Origin: a bacterium
GTDB taxonomy: Bacteria > Bacteroidota > Bacteroidia > B-17B0 > Aurantibacillaceae
Assembly (NCBI GenBank): GCA_029945625.1
Contig: JAQSCW010000021.1
Coordinates: forward strand, 1 to 33,143
Direction: 5' to 3'
Length of the DNA: 33,143 bases
Of this stretch, positions 24,540 to 33,143 are shown piece after piece. Below the pieces are notes generated by a model. That model did not search any database and had not been told where the DNA came from. It worked only from the letters and a program-made list of their open reading frames with translations. The position numbers and the translations under genes were made by a program. Every line of letters begins with the position of its first letter. Position 1 is the stretch's first letter.

Positions 24540-25223
24540 GTGCTTCATAACGTTTCAAAAGAAGATGAATACCTGTTTCATGGCAAACGCAAACGTTTGG
24601 TGGAACAACTAAAATTAAAAGGGATAAAAAGCGACAAAGTGCTGGCTGCCATTGAAAAAATACCCCGCCATCTTTTTTTTGACGCCAGTACCGGTCGACC
24701 GGCATTGCTTGATCATGCGTATAGTGACAAGGCTTTACCCATTGGAGCCGGACAAACTATTTCCCAACCTTATACGGTGGCGTTTCAAACCGAGCAATTG
24801 AGCATAATTCCCGGTGAAAAGGTACTTGAAATAGGTACAGGTTGTGGTTACCAAACAGCGGTGCTCCTCGAAATGGGCGCCAAAGTATACAGCATCGAGC
24901 GTCAAAGAGAATTGTTTGACCTCACCAAATTATTCCTTCCTTCTATTGGGTACCGATCGGCCAAATTGATTTATGGCGACGGCTATAAGGGTCTTCCTCA
25001 GTTCGCACCTTTCGACAAGATCATTGTCACCGCTGCCGCTCCTTATATCCCAAACGATCTGTTGGTCCAACTCAAGGTGGGCGGAAATATCATAATTCCC
25101 CTCGGTGAAGGAGAAGTGCAGGAAATGGTGTGGTTAAAAAAAAGTTCCGCCAGTACATTCGATCGAAAAGTACTCGGGAATTTCAAATTCGTCCCCCTGC
25201 TTCAACATAAGGCCGGCAAATAA
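24540..25223 (+). CDS. pcm: Protein-L-isoaspartate O-methyltransferase
   Basis: Uses S-adenosylmethionine to methylate isoaspartyl residues in aged proteins so that they can revert to aspartate; cytosolic repair enzyme. The 227 residues show the family's IPRHLF (41-46), the GQTISQPY loop (71-78) and SAM motif I LEIGTGCGY (96-104), with motif FDKIIVTAAAP near 161-171. The start is GTG at 24540-24542; no ATG occurs in frame before the conserved core, so the GTG is the best choice. Monocistronic, divergent from the oxidoreductase operon, and followed by a weak terminator. Confidence 0.93.
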   Translation: MLHNVSKEDEYLFHGKRKRLVEQLKLKGIKSDKVLAAIEKIPRHLFFDASTGRPALLDHAYSDKALPIGAGQTISQPYTVAFQTEQLSIIPGEKVLEIGTGCGYQTAVLLEMGAKVYSIERQRELFDLTKLFLPSIGYRSAKLIYGDGYKGLPQFAPFDKIIVTAAAPYIPNDLLVQLKVGGNIIIPLGEGEVQEMVWLKKSSASTFDRKVLGNFKFVPLLQHKAGK

Positions 25224-25340: not shown

Positions 25341-26252
25341 ATGAAAAAACTAATTTCAGTTCTATTTTTGATTCACACAAGTGTGGTGTTCTCTCAGGAC
25401 CTTACCTCCAAAAATGGAGAACCTATTTTGCCTCAGGCTAAAAATTGGGCCATTGGCATTGATGCCACCAGACTCATAAAAGATGCCACTTTTAATTTTG
25501 TTTCCAGTTCGCAGGCCATCACCGGAAAGTATTTTAAAGACGCCACAACTGCTTATAGGGTGAGTGCACGCATTGGCATTAATAACTGGACCACCAACGA
25601 ACGCGTAATCGACCGTTTGGCGGCCACCAGTACCGTGGTGGCCTATCCTGCGGCGCAACCTACCAAACAAAATACTTGGAGCAGAAATGCCACCGCATTC
25701 GGACTCAGTTTTGGGGTCGAGAAACGTAGGGGTAACACCCGTTTGCAAGGGATTTATGGCGTAGAAGGCGGCGTTTACCTGTCCACCTTAAATGACAAGT
25801 TTACTTATGGTAATGCCTTAAATGCAAATCCTTCCAATCCGGTAACCATTACAGTGGATGACGCCATGTCAAGTAAACAATTTGGTTATGCAAATAATAT
25901 TGATACCCTTCCAAAAATACAGGGAGTTCAGGGGGCGGCCCGCGTCATAGAACGTAAAAACGGAGTTGGTCTTTCCATTGGTGCACGCGTGTTTATTGGT
26001 GCCGAATTTTTTGTGCTTCCAAAAATGAGTATCGGGGGCGAATTTGGCTGGGGAGCTGCAATCACCACGTCCGGAAAAACAACCACCACACTTGAGTCGA
26101 TTGGGGCCTCCAATATTCAGGGCAATACAGCACCCTCGGTAAAACGCACCACGCTTGATGGTGGAAACGAAAATGCCACACGTATTGACACCGACAATGC
26201 CAGTATCCTCGGCGGTGCTTCTGCTTCCTTACGACTAAATTTGTATTTCTAA
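25341..26252 (+). CDS. Predicted outer-membrane beta-barrel protein
   Basis: A 303-residue protein with a signal peptide (about 1-19, ending VFSQ). Strand-like segments (AFGLSFGVEKRRG, LQGIYGVEGGVYL, GVGLSIGARVFIGAEFFV, IGGEFGWGAAITT) and a final strand ending in Phe (ASLRLNLYF) point to a barrel inserted in the outer membrane. No family is recognised. The central part is Thr/Asn-rich and likely forms surface loops. It stands alone between pcm and the T9SS-cargo genes, with no strong promoter match. Confidence 0.75.
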   Translation: MKKLISVLFLIHTSVVFSQDLTSKNGEPILPQAKNWAIGIDATRLIKDATFNFVSSSQAITGKYFKDATTAYRVSARIGINNWTTNERVIDRLAATSTVVAYPAAQPTKQNTWSRNATAFGLSFGVEKRRGNTRLQGIYGVEGGVYLSTLNDKFTYGNALNANPSNPVTITVDDAMSSKQFGYANNIDTLPKIQGVQGAARVIERKNGVGLSIGARVFIGAEFFVLPKMSIGGEFGWGAAITTSGKTTTTLESIGASNIQGNTAPSVKRTTLDGGNENATRIDTDNASILGGASASLRLNLYF

Positions 26253-26472: not shown

Positions 26473-26505
26473 TTTGTTAGTTATATAAAAAATTTAATAC
26501 ATTTG
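26473..26505 (+). promoter_or_regulatory. Promoter of the GEVEDY T9SS cargo gene
   Basis: TTTG at 26473-26476, a 21-base spacer and TACATTTG at 26498-26505, both exact matches to the Bacteroidota consensus, 24 bases before the ATG. This is the best promoter in the window. Confidence 0.7.
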
Positions 26506-26529: not shown

Positions 26530-28830
26530 ATGAAAAAACTTTACAAGTCCCTAAAATTGGTGCTGTTGTTTTCTTGCTTATTGAGCATAAAAGCAATCGC
26601 TCAACCAACCTATTGTCCCCAACAAGCTACGTCCACAAATGATGACGAGATTTTTAACGTGTCTATTGGGACGTTAACCAATTCAAGTGTTTGTGGTGCT
26701 TTGGGCGGGCCCGGCTCCCTTGCATTTCTGTACCAAAATTATACAGGAATTACGGCACCTAATTTAATTGTAGGAAATGTATACACCATCTCGGTAACTG
26801 GTGGTCAATGCAGTGGATTCGCCTACAGCGGAACCATTTATGTGTGGATCGACTATAACCAAGATGGATTATTTACCGGTGTGGGTGAACAAATCTGGAC
26901 GGCAGCCGGCACATTCGCGGTTGCAGGAACCGTTTTCACCGGCACCATCACCGTTCCTTTTAGCGCTTCTTTTGGTACCACGCGTATGCGTGTTACACTG
27001 GTAGAAGGTTCCGTTGGTGGTCCATGTACTAACTTTACCTGGGGTGAAGTAGAAGACTATAATGTGAACATTATCTCTAATACGCCTTGTACCGGAACTC
27101 CGGGCACCAATACCATTCTCCCTACTTCGTATTCTACTTGCCCTGGTTTGGTAAATCCGAACTTAACCTTGGCAAATCAGTACACAGTAGGAGGTATCGC
27201 TTACCAATGGCAATCCTCTACCGTTTCGCCGGTGGGTCCTTTCACGCCAATTCCGGGTTCAACACTGTATGCAGCGCCATTACCAACATTGGGTGTTACC
27301 ACCTGGTTTCAGGTAGTTGCTACCTGTACTAATTCAGGGGGAACATTTACCTCTTCTTCTTCTCAATTTTATGTAGCAGGTACCACTACTAACTCTGTGC
27401 CTTATCTGGAAGATTTCGAAGGTATTCAAGGCCCGGATAGGCTTCCAAATTGTTCATGGTGGGCGAATAACCTGGGCAGTACCGTAAAAACTTACACGGC
27501 TGCCAATTCAAACAACAGAGTACCATATAGCGGCACTAGGTTTGGAGGTTTCTCTTTGCCTTCCGCCAATAATATTGTTTACTCAAACGGCATCCAATTG
27601 GATCCGGGAATTACCTATTCAGCATCAGTTATGTTTGCAACCGAGTATTTTGGATATAATAACTGGTCGAATCTGAGCATCATGTTAGGTACGAGCCAAA
27701 CGCCGGGCGGACTCGTGCAGATAGCTTCTGTTAGTCCTGCCATCAGCGGCCCTTATAAATTACTCGGAAATACGTTTACGGTTTCAAGTTCAGGGCTTTA
27801 TTACATTGCTCTAAAAGCAACAGCGGCAAGCGGAAGTGCTTTGTATCTGTCGTTCGATGATCTTTCTGTAACGATCCCTTGTACACCTGCATCCGGCAAT
27901 AGCCCAACAGTTACACTTAATGCAAGCACAAATACAATTTGTGCGAACGACCAGTTGAATTTAAATGCAACAGGCGCAGGCGCTTACCTTTGGAGTAACG
28001 GAGCTACTGCTGCCAACATCGTAGTGAGTCCGCTTGTTAATACAACGTATACCGTTGTGGGTACAAATTTGCTTACAGGGTGTTCACAAACTCTTAGTCA
28101 GTTAATTACCGTTAATCCGTCTCCAACTGTATTTATCGTTGCCAATACTCCTGCAATTTGTCCGGGCGAACTTGTTCACTTACAAGGCTACGGTGCTTTA
28201 AGTTATGCGTGGAGCAATGGTAGTGTTGGAAGTTTGTTGAGCATTTCTCCTTCAGCCAGCACCACGTATTCTGTAATTGGTACAAATGCATTTGGATGCA
28301 GTGCAACCAGCGCACAATTAGTAACTGTAAAAACGCCGCCGTCAATTACTGCCATCAGCAGCAATCTCAGCGATATTTGCAGTGGTGAGCCGGTAACGTT
28401 AACCGGTAACGGTGGTGTAAGTTACACATGGTATTCAAGTTCAAGTTCAGTGTTATACAGTGGAAGCCCTGCAGTGGTATATCCTAATACAAGTACGACC
28501 TTTACGGTTGTAGGTGTTGGTGCAAATGGCTGTACTAATAAAGCCACCGTTAACCAAGGAGTACAACCTTGTTTAGGTTTGGTAAAAAACACTTCCGGCG
28601 TATCCGGTATCAAATTATATCCAAATCCTGCTCAAGCAATGTTTACAGTTGAATCTGCAAGCACTGTTAATTCGGTAGAAGTATCAGATGTTACAGGTCG
28701 TGTGGTATTGGTTCTTACCGGCAGCAGCGATAAATTAGCAGTTGATATCACCTCATTGGCAAATGGCATTTATTATGCTAAGATCAATTCCGGTAACCTG
28801 GTTGAGATCGTTAAAGTGGTGAAACAATAA
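26530..28830 (+). CDS. T9SS type A cargo protein with GEVEDY head and Ig-like stalk
   Basis: Large secreted or surface-attached protein of 766 residues. In order: signal peptide (1-24, ending AIAQ); a head domain about 28-180 ending in the WGEVEDYNV motif (171-179) of the GEVEDY domain family, with an Asp/Asn loop IDYNQDGLF (107-115) suited to calcium; an Ig-like segment (about 187-285); a jelly-roll-like module opening PYLEDFEG (291-298) to about 450; three Ig/PKD-like repeats (about 457-530, 531-602, 603-680); and a type A sorting domain from about 691 with KLYPNP (695-700) and terminal VKVVKQ. The sorting domain is removed and the protein anchored or released after export by T9SS. From about residue 187 on it closely parallels the next gene. 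Strong promoter and terminator: single-gene unit. Ligand unknown. Confidence 0.9.
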   Translation: MKKLYKSLKLVLLFSCLLSIKAIAQPTYCPQQATSTNDDEIFNVSIGTLTNSSVCGALGGPGSLAFLYQNYTGITAPNLIVGNVYTISVTGGQCSGFAYSGTIYVWIDYNQDGLFTGVGEQIWTAAGTFAVAGTVFTGTITVPFSASFGTTRMRVTLVEGSVGGPCTNFTWGEVEDYNVNIISNTPCTGTPGTNTILPTSYSTCPGLVNPNLTLANQYTVGGIAYQWQSSTVSPVGPFTPIPGSTLYAAPLPTLGVTTWFQVVATCTNSGGTFTSSSSQFYVAGTTTNSVPYLEDFEGIQGPDRLPNCSWWANNLGSTVKTYTAANSNNRVPYSGTRFGGFSLPSANNIVYSNGIQLDPGITYSASVMFATEYFGYNNWSNLSIMLGTSQTPGGLVQIASVSPAISGPYKLLGNTFTVSSSGLYYIALKATAASGSALYLSFDDLSVTIPCTPASGNSPTVTLNASTNTICANDQLNLNATGAGAYLWSNGATAANIVVSPLVNTTYTVVGTNLLTGCSQTLSQLITVNPSPTVFIVANTPAICPGELVHLQGYGALSYAWSNGSVGSLLSISPSASTTYSVIGTNAFGCSATSAQLVTVKTPPSITAISSNLSDICSGEPVTLTGNGGVSYTWYSSSSSVLYSGSPAVVYPNTSTTFTVVGVGANGCTNKATVNQGVQPCLGLVKNTSGVSGIKLYPNPAQAMFTVESASTVNSVEVSDVTGRVVLVLTGSSDKLAVDITSLANGIYYAKINSGNLVEIVKVVKQ

Positions 28831-28847
28831 CCAAAAGACCAATTCAT

Positions 28848-28887
28848 AAAAAACCTCCATCCTTAAAAAAGGGTGGAGGTTTTTTTT
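28848..28887 (+). terminator. Terminator of the GEVEDY cargo gene
   Basis: A 9-bp GC-rich stem (CCTCCATCC / GGGTGGAGG, one wobble), flanked by A and T runs with eight T after the stem. Confidence 0.93.
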
Positions 28888-28972
28888 GTTCATGTCTATA
28901 ATTAGAGTAGAGGGCTAGACCAAAAAATTTCTTCTCAAATTTCCGCTTGATATCGAATTTTTAATCAAAATT

Positions 28973-29039
28973 AACCGGTTGTTAACAAGGGCTATGTTTC
29001 CACGCGTTTTTTTAACAGAAATCAAACAACTGTTAAAAA
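28973..29039 (+). promoter_or_regulatory. Operator-like palindrome cluster upstream of the CUB cargo gene
   Basis: Overlapping palindromes AACCGGTT (28973-28980) and TTGTTAACAA (28979-28988) precede a perfect 10-bp inverted repeat TTTTTAACAG / CTGTTAAAAA (29009-29018, 29030-29039, 11-base loop). The last arm ends 11 bases before the -33 TTG. The shared TGTTAA/TTAACA half-site suggests a regulator; inference only. Confidence 0.4.
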
Positions 29040-29050
29040 TGAAATAAATA

Positions 29051-29080
29051 TTGATACCAATTATAATTTTAATACATTCG
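29051..29080 (+). promoter_or_regulatory. Promoter of the CUB T9SS cargo gene
   Basis: TTG at 29051-29053, a 19-base spacer and TACATTCG at 29073-29080. The leader to the ATG is about 44 bases. Confidence 0.6.
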
Positions 29081-29124
29081 TCCAAGACTAAAATCACTAA
29101 TTTTAAAATTTAACACACAAAGAC

Positions 29125-31338
29125 ATGAAAAAATTTACGAAATTCATTAAAGCTCATTCGGGAAGAAAAATTGTATTCTTTTTCTTGGTGATGTTTTCTT
29201 TTGGGCTTTCTGTCCGTTCTCAAAATGTGCTGATTCCTTTTTCGGGCTCACTGTCTGTTCCTTGCGGATCGAACGTGAACGTGCAGGCACACAACGGCTC
29301 AACCGGGCAATACGCGAACAACGCCAACGGATTTGTGGTATTGGATGCGGGGTTTAATGCAGTCATTTCAATTGTGGGAACTTATTCCACAGAAGCAGGT
29401 TTTGATTATATCCGCATTTTTAACGGTGTTGGAACAGGGGGTGCATTGTTAGCTTCTTACAACGGACAAAATTTAGCAATGACTTTTACTGGCGCTCCGG
29501 GGCAAACGCTCACGATCCAGTTTACCTCCGATGGCTCGGTTGTTTACAATGGATTTAATTTAGGAGTGACGTATTCGGGTCCTTGTTTTTCTGCCCCATG
29601 TGCCGGTGTACCTCTTACCAATACGATTATTGCCGCGCCAATTTCACTTTGCCCGAGTAACAATGCAACACTTGGGCTTGCCTATTCTTATTCATTGGGT
29701 GGCCTTTCTTACCAATGGCAATCTTCTACGGTATCGCCGGTGGGGCCATTTAGTCCCGTTGCCAATGCTACCAATAATATTTTGTTTACACCAACTCTTG
29801 GTATCACCACTTGGTTTCAGGCCGTAGTAACTTGCTCTAACAGCAACCAGAGTTCGTCAACAGTTGGGCAGCAGATTTTGGTGCAAGGTTCAACAACCAG
29901 CAATGTGCCCTATTTTGAAGGATTTGAAGGGGTAACCGTAAATGACCGTTTACCGAATTGTTCATGGTACGCGGCCAATCAAGGGACTTCTGTAAAAACG
30001 TATACCTCTTCACAAAGTAATAACAGACTGCCGCGAACCGGAAATAATTACGCCACTTTCGGGCAACCATCTGCTAACAATTATGTATTTACCAACGGCA
30101 TCCAGATGGATCCGGGAATTACCTATTCTGCGGCCCTGTATTATGCTACCGAGTACTTCGGGTATAGCAATTGGACCAATTTGAGTATATTAATTGGCCC
30201 CAATCAATCAACCACAGGTTTGGTGCAAGTGGCCTCCACCGGTCCTGCCATTAGTGGTCCTTATAATTTGCTTTCAGGAACTTTTGTAGTGCCTAGTTCC
30301 GGCTTATACTACATGGTTATAAAAGCCACCAGTGCGAGCGGAAGTGCTTTGTATTTATCGTTTGATGATATTTCAGTTACCATCCCTTGTACGCCGGCAT
30401 CCGGAAACAGCCCCACTGTGACTTTAAACGCGAGTTCAACTACCATTTGTGCAAACGATCAAGTGAATCTTAATGCAACAGGAGCAAGCGCGTATCTATG
30501 GGACAATGGATCTACGAGCTCAAACATTGTGGTTTCTCCGCTGGTAACTACTGCTTACACGGTAGTTTGTACGAATACGGTAACCGGCTGTTCACAAACA
30601 CTTACACAACTTATTAATGTTAATCCTTCACCCACTGTATTTATCGTTGCTGATAATACCAGTATTTGTCCCGGCGAAGCGGTTCACCTGGTTGCGTATG
30701 GTGGTTTATCCTATGCCTGGAGTAATGGATCAGTGGGAGGCATGTTAACAGCGAGTCCATTAACCACTACTTCTTACTCTGTAATTGGAACCAACGCAAA
30801 CGGTTGTAGCAGCAGCAGTTCACAAGTGGTTACCTTAAAAACACTGCCATCTATTACTGCTGTGAGCAGTAATCTCAATGAGTCCTGCCCGGGTGAGCCT
30901 GTAACCTTAACAGGCGGTGGCGGCGTAACTTATACCTGGTTTTCGAGTTCATCGCCCATTTTACTATCGGGAACGTCGGTGATTGTTAATCCAACCACCA
31001 ACAGTACTTATACCGTTACTGGGGTGGGAACAAATGGTTGTTCAAACAAAGCTACAGTGAATCAAAATGTGGCCACGTGTACCGGACTCATCTCAAATTT
31101 GGGAGCCGTGGAGAACTTCAAATTATATCCGAATCCAACTACTTCCGCATTCACCGTTGAGTTTTCAAAACCAATTGTGTTGGTAGAAATATCAGATATA
31201 ACCGGACGAATCATATCCGCTGTAAGCGGCACTGGTACGCACATGGTGGTTGATCTCTCACATCTTGCAAGTGGTATTTATTATGCCAAAATAACTTCCG
31301 AATCGAGCAGTCAAACACTTAAAGTAGTGAAACAGTAA
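29125..31338 (+). CDS. T9SS type A cargo protein with CUB-like head and Ig-like stalk
   Basis: Secreted protein of 737 residues. A charged N-terminus and hydrophobic segment form the signal peptide (about 1-33, ending VRSQ). The head (about 34-153) fits a CUB domain: a YSTEAGFDYIRIFNG strand (87-101), then FTGAPGQTLTIQFTSDGS (121-138) and a short final strand before Cys154. An Ig-like segment follows (about 158-253), a jelly-roll module opening PYFEGFEG (262-269), three Ig/PKD-like repeats (about 428-501, 502-573, 574-651) and the sorting domain from about 660 with KLYPNP (666-671) and terminal LKVVKQ. The whole part after the head is paralogous to the preceding protein; the stretch TPASGNSPTVTLNAS (422-436) is identical in both. 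Single-gene unit with strong terminator. Function likely adhesion or glycan binding, which is inference. Confidence 0.9.
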   Translation: MKKFTKFIKAHSGRKIVFFFLVMFSFGLSVRSQNVLIPFSGSLSVPCGSNVNVQAHNGSTGQYANNANGFVVLDAGFNAVISIVGTYSTEAGFDYIRIFNGVGTGGALLASYNGQNLAMTFTGAPGQTLTIQFTSDGSVVYNGFNLGVTYSGPCFSAPCAGVPLTNTIIAAPISLCPSNNATLGLAYSYSLGGLSYQWQSSTVSPVGPFSPVANATNNILFTPTLGITTWFQAVVTCSNSNQSSSTVGQQILVQGSTTSNVPYFEGFEGVTVNDRLPNCSWYAANQGTSVKTYTSSQSNNRLPRTGNNYATFGQPSANNYVFTNGIQMDPGITYSAALYYATEYFGYSNWTNLSILIGPNQSTTGLVQVASTGPAISGPYNLLSGTFVVPSSGLYYMVIKATSASGSALYLSFDDISVTIPCTPASGNSPTVTLNASSTTICANDQVNLNATGASAYLWDNGSTSSNIVVSPLVTTAYTVVCTNTVTGCSQTLTQLINVNPSPTVFIVADNTSICPGEAVHLVAYGGLSYAWSNGSVGGMLTASPLTTTSYSVIGTNANGCSSSSSQVVTLKTLPSITAVSSNLNESCPGEPVTLTGGGGVTYTWFSSSSPILLSGTSVIVNPTTNSTYTVTGVGTNGCSNKATVNQNVATCTGLISNLGAVENFKLYPNPTTSAFTVEFSKPIVLVEISDITGRIISAVSGTGTHMVVDLSHLASGIYYAKITSESSSQTLKVVKQ

Positions 31339-31349
31339 TTCTAATTTTT

Positions 31350-31387
31350 AAAAAAAAAACCAGCCTGAATTTAGGCTGGTTTTTTTT
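31350..31387 (+). terminator. Terminator of the CUB cargo gene
   Basis: Stem CCAGCCT (31360-31366) / AGGCTGG (31373-31379) with a 6-base loop, extended by A/T pairs and followed by eight T. Confidence 0.93.
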
Positions 31388-31479
31388 ATTTATAACAATT
31401 CTTTTTAATAAAAAAATGACATTAGTGTTAAATTTCAATTTTTTTTGCATTTCGTGTTAATTAATTAAAATTTAATCTC

Positions 31480-31487
31480 TAAATTCG
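31480..31487 (+). promoter_or_regulatory. Candidate -7 element of the beta-helix cargo gene
   Basis: TAAATTCG at 31480-31487, 28 bases before the ATG, matching the variant used by its neighbours. TGTTAA occurs at 31426-31431 and 31455-31460. No exact -33 TTG at the right spacing. Confidence 0.45.
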
Positions 31488-31515
31488 CCTTATAACAATC
31501 TAATCATCAAAAACA

Positions 31516-33143
31516 ATGAAAAAAACTTACAAAAAAATCAGAATGTTTGCGGCGCTCTTCCTCATAGTGGCGATGCAAGTGGGGGCGCAGCCGCTGAGTG
31601 GTTTATATACCATAAACAGTGGTGCAGCTACAGCTGGAACTAATTTTCAAACCTTCACGGCACTGGCAACTGCCCTCAACACCAATGGTGTGTCGGGCCC
31701 GGTTACCGTGAATGTGATCACGCTGTCAGGCCCTTATGTTGAGCAGCCTGCTTTCAATGCCATCACAGGTACTTCCGGTACCAATAAGATCGTAATCAAT
31801 GGTAATGGAAACCTGTTGGTGTTTAATTCCACGAGTTCAGGAGCTCCTCATACCTTGTTGTTAAACGGTGCTGATTTTATGACCTTTAATAATTTGAACG
31901 TAGAGGGTCAGGGAACTACCTACGCCATGGTGGTTGTTTTAACAAATGGCGCAGACCGCAACACCTTCAACAATTGTGTGTTCACTGCTCCACTTAACGG
32001 AACCAGCAGCATTCAATGCCCTTGGCAATTAACCTCATCACCAACCAGTCCTACAAGTGGTGGTACAAACAGTGGTAACTTTAATACAGTTAACTCTTGT
32101 ACTATGGCAAACGGGTATTATGGTATTGTGATGTATGGTTTAACAGGTTCACCTTACCAAACTAACAACAGTATTCTTAATTGCCGTATCACTGACTTTT
32201 ATGTGTACGGTATGTATTATCCTTACCAAAATTTTATTACGGTTAGAAATAATACAATTGATCGTTTGACCAGAACTACCAGCACTACTTGTTATGGTAT
32301 TTTGGGATACTGGCTAAATGGGGCCTTGGTTGAGGGTAATGTCGTGTGGAAATTATTTAATACTCCGGCTCTTCAGGGTAATCCCAATGCTTGTTATGGT
32401 TTTTACACGTATTATACCAATACACCGGGTGGTGTTCGTGGGCAATACAGAAACAACATCCTTACGGATATTAAGAACAATGGTACCATTTATGGTTGGT
32501 ATAACTATTACTCTAACAGTGATTATTATAACAATACCATTGATCTTGACTGGGCAGGTTCTACAAGCGCCGGCACCATTTGGGGAATGTATTGTTACGG
32601 TGCTGCAAGTTATAACAACAGCGTAACCAACAACATCATTACCTGCCGCAGAGGTGGTTCAGGTAGCAACAGATATGGTTTATATATTGCCTTGACAGGA
32701 AATATTTTTGTAGACAGAAACGACATCATCATGGTTGCCGGTTCCGGTGTTAATAACATTGGTTATTATGGAACTCCCTATGCTACCCTTCCAGCTTGGA
32801 ACACAGCTCTAGGTGCAGGAACTGATATTTCCATCGATCCTATGTACGTTTCGGCAACTGATTTACATCCAACCAATGTGTTAATGGATAATTATGCAAG
32901 TCCATTGGGCTTAGTGTTTGACCAAATGGGAGCTGTAAGAAGTTCAAGCGCACCTGATATTGGAGCACTTGAGTTTTTATCACCCGGCTGCTCAGGAGCT
33001 ATGCCTTCCAATTCAATTGCCGGTCCAACCTGGTCATTGTGTCCGGGTGAAGATGCCGGAATGATTATTGGTGCACTTTCACCTTCATTGGGTATTACTT
33101 ACCAATGGCAGTATTCTTCCATTTCAAACGTTGGTCCTTTTGC
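31516..33143 (+). CDS. Beta-helix surface protein, probable T9SS cargo (3' end outside window)
   Basis: A frame of 542 codons plus two bases, open from the ATG at 31516 to the window edge, so the product is C-terminally incomplete here. Signal peptide about 1-25 (ending VGAQ). Residues about 28-490 look like a right-handed parallel beta-helix: Asn/Tyr/Thr-rich rungs with recurring YG-(I/M/F/L)-x-Y turns (YGIVMYG, YGMYYP, YGILGY, YGFYTYY, YGWYNYY, WGMYCYG, YGLYI) separated by strands such as VRNNTI and VTNNIITC, and closed by PDIGALEF, a common ending of such domains. From about codon 492 an Ig-like module begins (Cys, SLCPGED, ITYQWQYSS, VGPF) that matches the stalk start of the two preceding genes. 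A sorting domain is therefore expected beyond the edge but is not seen. Confidence 0.85.
   Translation, partial: MKKTYKKIRMFAALFLIVAMQVGAQPLSGLYTINSGAATAGTNFQTFTALATALNTNGVSGPVTVNVITLSGPYVEQPAFNAITGTSGTNKIVINGNGNLLVFNSTSSGAPHTLLLNGADFMTFNNLNVEGQGTTYAMVVVLTNGADRNTFNNCVFTAPLNGTSSIQCPWQLTSSPTSPTSGGTNSGNFNTVNSCTMANGYYGIVMYGLTGSPYQTNNSILNCRITDFYVYGMYYPYQNFITVRNNTIDRLTRTTSTTCYGILGYWLNGALVEGNVVWKLFNTPALQGNPNACYGFYTYYTNTPGGVRGQYRNNILTDIKNNGTIYGWYNYYSNSDYYNNTIDLDWAGSTSAGTIWGMYCYGAASYNNSVTNNIITCRRGGSGSNRYGLYIALTGNIFVDRNDIIMVAGSGVNNIGYYGTPYATLPAWNTALGAGTDISIDPMYVSATDLHPTNVLMDNYASPLGLVFDQMGAVRSSSAPDIGALEFLSPGCSGAMPSNSIAGPTWSLCPGEDAGMIIGALSPSLGITYQWQYSSISNVGPF

Follow-up and report, generated by a model that had tools for sequence, protein, structure and literature searches.

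Three tandem genes at a contig end

The DNA analyzed here, referred to as the window, is a stretch of 33,143 nucleotides from a bacterium of the family Aurantibacillaceae (Bacteroidota), and it comprises the whole of contig JAQSCW010000021.1 of assembly GCA_029945625.1 (contig C21 below), which stops at position 33143 with no extension to the right. Three genes lie head to tail at 26530–33143, all on the forward strand and 3′ of a pcm-like gene and an outer-membrane-protein-like gene (omp). Gene 1 (26530–28830) encodes a 766-residue protein with a signal peptide recognized by eye, an N-terminal head of the GEVED family (PF20009; 26605–27078), a stalk shared with gene 2, and a type A sorting domain of the type IX secretion system (28615–28827). 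Gene 2 (29125–31338; 737 residues) has a signal peptide, likewise recognized by eye, a CUB-like head (29218–29586), the shared stalk, and a type IX sorting domain (31123–31335). The N-terminal part of the stalk, the neck, is defined as the first immunoglobulin-like segment (Ig1) together with the jelly-roll domain following it (gene 2 residues 155–426; alignment A1); it lies at 27079–27882 in gene 1, where it has no Pfam family, and at 29593–30390 in gene 2, where the second half (residues ~260–428) is modeled as a jelly-roll. Gene 3 begins at 31516 and is cut by the contig end (33143) at residue 542; it encodes a signal peptide, again by eye, a beta-helix head extending to approximately position 32988, and the start of an Ig1.

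A first-pass annotation made from the sequence alone held that the first two proteins can be aligned from their first Ig-like segment to the sorting domain while their heads differ, and this is borne out: residues 184–766 of gene 1 and 156–737 of gene 2 are 62.8% identical over 583 columns, and the two heads have no meaningful blastp match to each other. The segment TPASGNSPTVTLNAS, reported as identical in both, is indeed exact in the two proteins, starting at residue 452 in gene 1 and 423 in gene 2. The gene 1 head scores above the GEVED cut-off (E 3.7e-18, 66.5 bits versus a gathering threshold of 24.4), and both sorting domains are above theirs, with 47.0 and 47.4 bits for genes 1 and 2 respectively against Pfam Por_Secre_tail, and 45.4 and 45.1 bits against TIGR04183. 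The CUB scores of the gene 2 head lie below the Pfam gathering cut-offs (21.2 versus 32 and 15.9 versus 21.4 bits), and its AlphaFold2 (AF2) model has low confidence; it matches a procollagen C-endopeptidase enhancer PDB chain with CUB domains (phmmer, E 5.3e-5), and a relative of this head in another genome of the genus (G017) falls just under the CUB cut-off (E 2.2e-7, 31.2 versus 32 bits). At E 0.001 the gene 2 head is the sole match in its own genome (G000).

Gene 3 has no match to a Pfam family even at E 1, and its head is modeled by AF2 as a right-handed parallel beta-helix (predicted template modeling score 0.76; local confidence, pLDDT, mostly >80; residues 31–430). The model resembles beta-helix lyases, epimerases, and tailspikes at Z 25–30, and the adhesin PfbA and polysaccharide lyases are also among its structural relatives. 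The protein then enters Ig1, with the motifs CPGED, YQWQ, and VGPF, and residues 489–542 match gene 2 at 45%, in agreement with the proposal that a beta-helix head runs into the same Ig-like module as the window ends.

A paralogue of gene 3 ends contig C27 of the same assembly; it is 81% identical over the same 542 residues and stops at the same base. The ends of C21 and C27 have exactly 55 bases in common (33089–33143 in the window), of which a 54-base part occurs nowhere else in the assembly when up to two mismatches are allowed, and among seven 3′ ends compared, these two included, the window and C27 alone share an end. Because gene 3 and its paralogue end together in this way, a shared repeat probably broke the assembly, and the 55-base overlap fits an assembly with k-mer 55 running into one collapsed repeat. 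At E 1e-10 or better the neck has five matches in this genome (genes 1 and 2, a headless stalk in contig C55, a half-neck in C18, and a partial neck in C2), and since the missing stalk of gene 3 is not among them it has no place in the assembly. We think it probable that gene 3 and its C27 paralogue carry a near-identical stalk, or at least the start of one, under diverged heads, which suggests that draft genomes may lose such stalks at repeat-induced breaks and that the extent of the family may be underestimated. Contigs C37 and C13 were considered as a continuation of gene 3 and rejected, the tail there matching the family only in the generic sorting-domain part. We note separately that the end of C13 and the start of C37 (loci L173 and L174) also have exactly 55 bases in common, inside a pair of CHU_C-like type IX genes that are 87% identical over their first 1.8 kb, and this is probably another repeat-broken pair of paralogues.

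A stalk family with diverse heads

The neck opens with a conserved PC.G.P..N motif, and none of the 18 necks scanned matches any Pfam family above cut-off. Neck matches at E 1e-10 or better were found in 36 of 40 genomes of the genus, many of them to Ig1 alone. A sample of 198 genomes from the class, in which at most 13 candidates were scored per genome, gave neck matches in 50, of which four belong to this genus; near-full necks outside the genus were seen in G034 (E 1.7e-44), G087 (1.4e-24), and G186 (1.0e-19), the others listed being partial. From the matches listed for the 40 genus genomes (60 fetched stretches plus those of the own genome) we drew 77 open reading frames (ORFs) with a full neck; ORFs lacking a near-full neck were excluded, among them gene 3 and its C27 paralogue.

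Head classes were assigned by hand from blastp against seeds, and the 77 genes comprise 30 beta-helix, nine GEVED, nine D, seven E, five CUB-like, four F, four G, two H, and one I heads, together with two headless genes and four with multiple or other arrangements. The E and H heads are weakly alike (E ~1e-3 to 6e-4), and members of class F are only weakly alike among themselves. Among ten heads of relatives that were scanned, GEVED alone passes a Pfam cut-off; matches below cut-off to viral, flagellar, and toxin families in Pfam and NCBIfam were treated as chance. The notion of a common scaffold bearing different heads therefore extends, when related genomes are compared, to 77 full-neck genes with nine head classes plus headless forms. 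We have found no description of this stalk family in the literature, a search that covered open-licence papers and is no proof of absence.

Reduced forms of the stalk are also present. A headless gene at C55:158731–160635 (L032) joins a signal peptide straight onto Ig1 and contains one internal TAA stop, and G017 has a headless relative of it without an internal stop. A half-stalk form that opens with the jelly-roll, continues with Ig repeats, and lacks both head and Ig1 lies at C18:179621–181348, and relatives of it, mostly ~440–600 amino acids long, occur in G001, G009, G011, G017, G041, and G046.

The left anchor of the site in the window is the forward-strand gene at 24540–25223, which we take to be pcm-like and which is matched in 36 of the 40 genus genomes. 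Nine of these 36 were assigned full-neck genes downstream, and the head sets differ. The own genome has GEVED and CUB followed by the beta-helix gene 3, which is cut within Ig1; G001 has two beta-helix genes; G009 has D, two beta-helix, GEVED, and F, followed by an ORF with a GEVED-like part; G010 has D and a cut beta-helix gene; G013 has beta-helix, H, and E; G017 has beta-helix and after it a cut ORF whose head is GEVED-like; G041 has beta-helix, H, and three beta-helix genes; G046 has beta-helix, two GEVED, and E; and G011 has beta-helix and E, linked to the site only via an omp fragment at a contig end, with pcm on another contig. A further nine genomes (G003, G006, G007, G018, G020, G021, G044, G051, and G053) have as the next gene a sorting domain on another stalk, and in several of these G, GEVED, or D heads occur there or adjoining. 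There is no such gene next to the site, or it is unlabeled, in 11 genomes, one of which (G048) carries, ~5 kb beyond, a full-neck gene on the opposite strand, and in seven the contig or stretch ends too early for the site to be seen.

Histories of heads and stalks

If each head had stayed with its stalk, a tree of the necks should require few changes of head class. For several classes it requires many: eight for the nine GEVED genes (shuffled mean 8.7), five for five CUB, two for two H, five for seven E, and three for four in each of F and G, with the beta-helix (five for 30; shuffled 23.8) and D (three for nine) classes being more cohesive. Approximately unbiased (AU) tests, completed for GEVED, CUB, and E, reject stalk trees that place each class in one clade (p 1.1e-40, 1.9e-4, and 1.0e-4 respectively). 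We also asked, for each gene, whether the closest neck below another head in its own genome is more similar than the closest neck below its own head class elsewhere; in a restricted form of this comparison, in which the sister pair G004/G005 was not used as cross-species partners and 68 of the 77 genes were included (without the four multiple arrangements, the single I, and four partnerless genes), this was so for 26 of 68, and for 22 of the 30 outside the beta-helix and D classes. An unrestricted comparison used 62 of the 77 genes, 28 of them neither beta-helix nor D, and for the distal stalk 14 of these 28 were closest to a different head in the same genome versus six to the same head in another genome. 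Decoupling thus increases towards the C-terminus and is not set at a single head/stalk border. Even within the beta-helix class the histories are incongruent: for 27 of the 30 genes the head tree is rejected when tested on stalk data (p 4.9e-5), as is the stalk tree on head data (p 7.7e-43). In the 23 used for correlation analysis the neck correlates with the two head halves at rho 0.55–0.59, the halves correlating with each other at 0.65.

Near-identity confined to the stalk is apparent in several relatives, judged by synonymous divergence (dS) in pairs chosen after inspecting the tree; values of dS above ~1 are near saturation and mean only that a divergence is old. Three tandem beta-helix genes in G041, a genome well assembled into two contigs, have head dS of 0.32–0.45, with a ratio of nonsynonymous to synonymous divergence (dN/dS) of 0.12–0.20, and stalk segments at 0–0.07. 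One of these pairs is identical over 1638 bases from a point 8 bases into the neck, and a further run extends as far as the stop codon; in two of the three pairs identity drops to ~60% and lower within ~100 bases past the stop. Three copies in G001, whose assembly is a single contig, lie at 1.27, 2.52, and 3.94 Mb and have head dS of 1.41–1.48, with Ig1 at 0.40–0.96, the jelly-roll at 0.28–0.43, and the distal stalk at 0.23–0.39, and in one pair the likeness continues ~200 bases beyond the stop. In the draft genome G004 an F gene and a GEVED gene on different contigs have unrelated heads, and dS falls from 1.8 in Ig1 to 0.28 in the jelly-roll and 0.14 in the distal stalk, the likeness persisting beyond the stop across all of the flank that was compared. 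Between G004 and G005, the orthologous F genes differ by 0.55 in the jelly-roll and 0.41 in the distal stalk, so the stalk sharing within G004 is younger than the split between these two species. Breakpoints vary: that of one G041 pair lies at the neck start, gene 3 and its C27 paralogue have theirs inside Ig1, and in G004 it lies ~300 bases into the neck. We read this, together with tracts that continue to the 3′ end or beyond, as the product of exchange driven by homology and not of site-specific cassette exchange.

Some genes have the converse pattern, as exchange in the other direction or duplication would leave. Two beta-helix genes of G009 (C15:40369 and C15:43781) have heads 87% identical and stalks 62% identical, and two of G010 (C237 and C59) have heads 79% and stalks 64% identical, while across the two species heads are 51–54% and stalks 60–63% identical; within each species it is the heads, not the stalks, that are alike. 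A cross-species pairing of G009 and G010 stalks in the full-stalk tree was set aside, as stalk identities are 60–64% everywhere and the neck tree groups the two G009 necks.

We consider it probable that the three genes belong to a species-variable array of type IX surface proteins in which duplication and recombination reassort heads and stalks. Each protein would be built from a signal peptide, an exchangeable head, a common stalk (Ig1, jelly-roll neck, and CHU_C-type Ig repeats), and a sorting domain. Paralogues would arise by duplication, in tandem beside pcm–omp and elsewhere, and homologous recombination among alike stalks would then reassort heads and stalks through exchanges that begin close to the head end, within Ig1, or within the neck and extend to the 3′ end or beyond it. 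The outcome would be either two different heads on the same stalk or a new head on one stalk lineage, and new heads may be favored by selection. The first-pass annotation had proposed duplication plus head replacement, of which the duplication, and recombination between head and stalk, are supported; head replacement is only part of the process, as stalks are homogenized between paralogues, the G009 and G010 genes have heads, not stalks, that are alike within each species, and decoupling grows towards the C-terminus.

Several results weigh against this interpretation or limit its reach. Over all head classes the neck tree requires 26 changes compared to 44.7 in shuffles, a value as low being reached in none of 200, so that heads and stalks are associated overall and decoupling is partial. 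For the most part the beta-helix and D heads stay with stalk lineages of their own, with only three of 30 and one of eight genes decoupled in the restricted comparison, and in the unrestricted one the neck gives a tie, with eight of 28 nearest to a different head in the same genome and eight of 28 to the same head in another. Among the beta-helix genes the neck correlates with the distal stalk at rho 0.28, lower than with the head; the neck tracks the head better than it tracks the distal stalk, and the head/stalk border is therefore not the sole module border. No part of low dS is present in the G046 GEVED, G011 beta-helix, or genes 1/2 pairs. Genes 1 and 2 are at or close to synonymous saturation throughout. 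A local conversion tract around TPASGNSPTVTLNAS was considered and rejected, as third-position identity at identical residues is ordinary all along their stalk, 614 of 1000 permutations being as high. Genes 1 and 2 thus have no sign of recent exchange, and what can be seen there is the outcome of the process, without date or direction.

A rival explanation is an ordinary old family, in which each architecture arose once and diverged vertically, the heads simply changing faster than the stalks. In its favor, the stalk tree groups head classes together overall, the beta-helix and D classes have largely their own stalk clades, and E, F, and beta-helix genes have stayed orthologous between the sister species G004 and G005; this explanation could still hold for genes 1 and 2, where no recent exchange is seen. 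However, in G041 and G001 the dS of the head differs several-fold or more from that of most of the stalk, and with head dN/dS at 0.12–0.20 faster protein evolution of the heads cannot explain the difference and is ruled out as the whole explanation. For three head classes a single stalk clade is rejected, and the distal stalk of the G004 GEVED and F genes was shared more recently than the G004/G005 split. The explanation is therefore largely refuted for several genes and classes, and for the family we regard it as unlikely. Old full-length architectures with unrelated stalks were not seen, yet the beta-helix and D classes come part of the way by mostly retaining their stalk lineages.

Site-specific shuffling, in which a shufflon-like system or recombinase-driven cassette exchange places heads onto an expressed stalk, could account for heads that are wholly different above a neck that opens with the conserved PC.G.P..N motif, but a fixed site is difficult to reconcile with the varying breakpoints described above. 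Furthermore, genes 1 and 2 are both complete, inverted repeats of at least 24 bases in the array are few and just 70–76% complementary, no head-only copy of the CUB or beta-helix heads was found in the own assembly, and its two other GEVED copies sit in large ORFs; we consider shuffling of this kind very improbable. Even less credence is due to the idea that the stalk likeness is merely generic, CHU_C-type Ig repeats and sorting domains being similar in all such bacteria. Gene 2 does have 201 matches in its own genome at E 1e-5 or better, most of those listed being to Ig repeats, but the neck is specific, with only the five matches noted above; the class sample yielded few near-full necks from beyond the genus, all of them weaker, and genes 1 and 2 are 63% identical across 583 columns.

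It is possible, if somewhat doubtful, that the pcm–omp site is a genus-wide loading dock for heads, with the stalk acting as a recombination handle by which any gene bearing it, whether imported or duplicated, could exchange head or stalk with the genes already there. If so, species would assemble their own sets of tips on a single platform for delivery and anchoring. To our knowledge the ligands of type IX sorting-domain proteins are mostly unknown, and a shared stalk with head exchange that can be tracked would offer a natural experiment, in which heads are catalogued at one site, compared on one scaffold, and tied to habitat.

Flanking elements, secretion, and known systems

The omp gene (25341–26252, forward strand), named by eye, lies between pcm and the array and has no Pfam or NCBIfam family above cut-off. 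Its conservation is well below that of pcm (32–74% versus mostly 76–85% identity), it is kept at the pcm site even where genomes have no array, and in G013 and G046 no omp is recognizable between pcm and the array. PADLOC gave no match for genes 1–3 or omp. The first-pass annotation credited each gene with its own promoter element and the first two with strong terminators, and these hold unevenly, the promoter elements being weakly supported. An element TTTG-N-TACATTTG at 26473–26505, upstream of gene 1 on the forward strand, is an exact match to the Bacteroidetes-type promoter pattern, is the only exact match upstream of the three genes, and is not significant by itself; genes 2 and 3 are preceded by looser versions seen by eye. 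Neither this pattern (three in the window versus 1.8 expected) nor sigma-70-like sites (15 in the scan versus 17.3 in shuffles) is in excess. A strong intrinsic-terminator-like hairpin of 17 pairs was found by the terminator scan after gene 1 (28848–28885, forward strand), and a terminator-like hairpin with a T run after gene 2 (~31352–31387, forward strand) was recognized by eye and is absent from the list of the scan.

Genes 1 and 2 appear to be type IX secretion cargo, and their products are predicted to be exported and attached to the surface by that system. A search for the machinery component SprA gave one SprA_N match in the own genome (505 bits), and the type IX sorting domains encoded in its 4.1 Mb number at least 150, with 150 of 254 candidates scored, which is a large cargo set for a single genome. 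The gene 2 stalk is modeled as a row of beta domains (pLDDT mostly 86–95 at residues 411–650) and may act as a spacer, and the structural matches of the neck jelly-roll are tied between the meprin MAM domain, the gingipain K1/K2 adhesin domains, and family 4/22 carbohydrate-binding modules (CBM4/22). Judging from the folds, these are most likely surface-displayed proteins whose heads bind polysaccharides, or in the case of the beta-helix perhaps cut them, and more broadly the heads may be regarded as putative glycan- or protein-binding, perhaps enzymatic, tips.

Foldseek places the grappling-hook protein GhpA of Aureispira (PDB 9fls, 9flu–9flx, and 9g8b) first among matches to the gene 2 model, with E 5.3e-17 for 9flw, presumably via the Ig-like repeats. 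TM-scores are just 0.22–0.26 on the query, and GhpA is far larger, residue numbers in the deposited fragments reaching 4421; the likeness comes from comparison with a model, and we do not carry the hook function over to gene 2. Polymorphic toxin systems, as portrayed in the consulted text of PMC3482391, similarly combine a constant delivery part with an exchangeable end and recombination, but the variable end there is C-terminal and toxic, whereas here it is N-terminal, and if the loading-dock idea is correct the arrays would be a mirror image of those systems. No toxin family scored above cut-off in genes 1–3 or the ten heads of relatives; immunity genes were not searched for.

The closest precedent is provided by the gingipains and HagA of Porphyromonas gingivalis. 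RgpA shares adhesins with Kgp and HagA, and HagA has no protease. As far as the excerpts of PMC5266723 and PMC9328147 go, gingipains (RgpA and Kgp) and HagA have different N-terminal parts on shared adhesin repeats and a sorting domain; hagA and kgp are close together with virtually identical 3′ ends, homologous recombination between them has been inferred, and the region is a place of contig breaks in draft assemblies. To that extent the two groups are alike in being type IX cargo, in bearing varied heads on one adhesin or tail region, and in recombination between paralogues, which here is seen in relatives. The cleaved adhesin domains K1 and K2 of Kgp also match the neck jelly-roll (Z 14.6, root-mean-square deviation 2.5, over 145 and 147 residues respectively), a likeness of fold in which MAM and CBM4/22 domains score as well, and none of the 18 necks has a Pfam Cleaved_Adhesin match at E 0.1. 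The heads described for gingipains are proteases, whereas no protease family scores above cut-off in genes 1–3 or the ten heads of relatives scanned, and the present family has nine head classes, with variation followed here across the species of one genus. By sequence the stalk family is not a member of the gingipain/HagA group, but it seems to work alike and with a broader range of heads.

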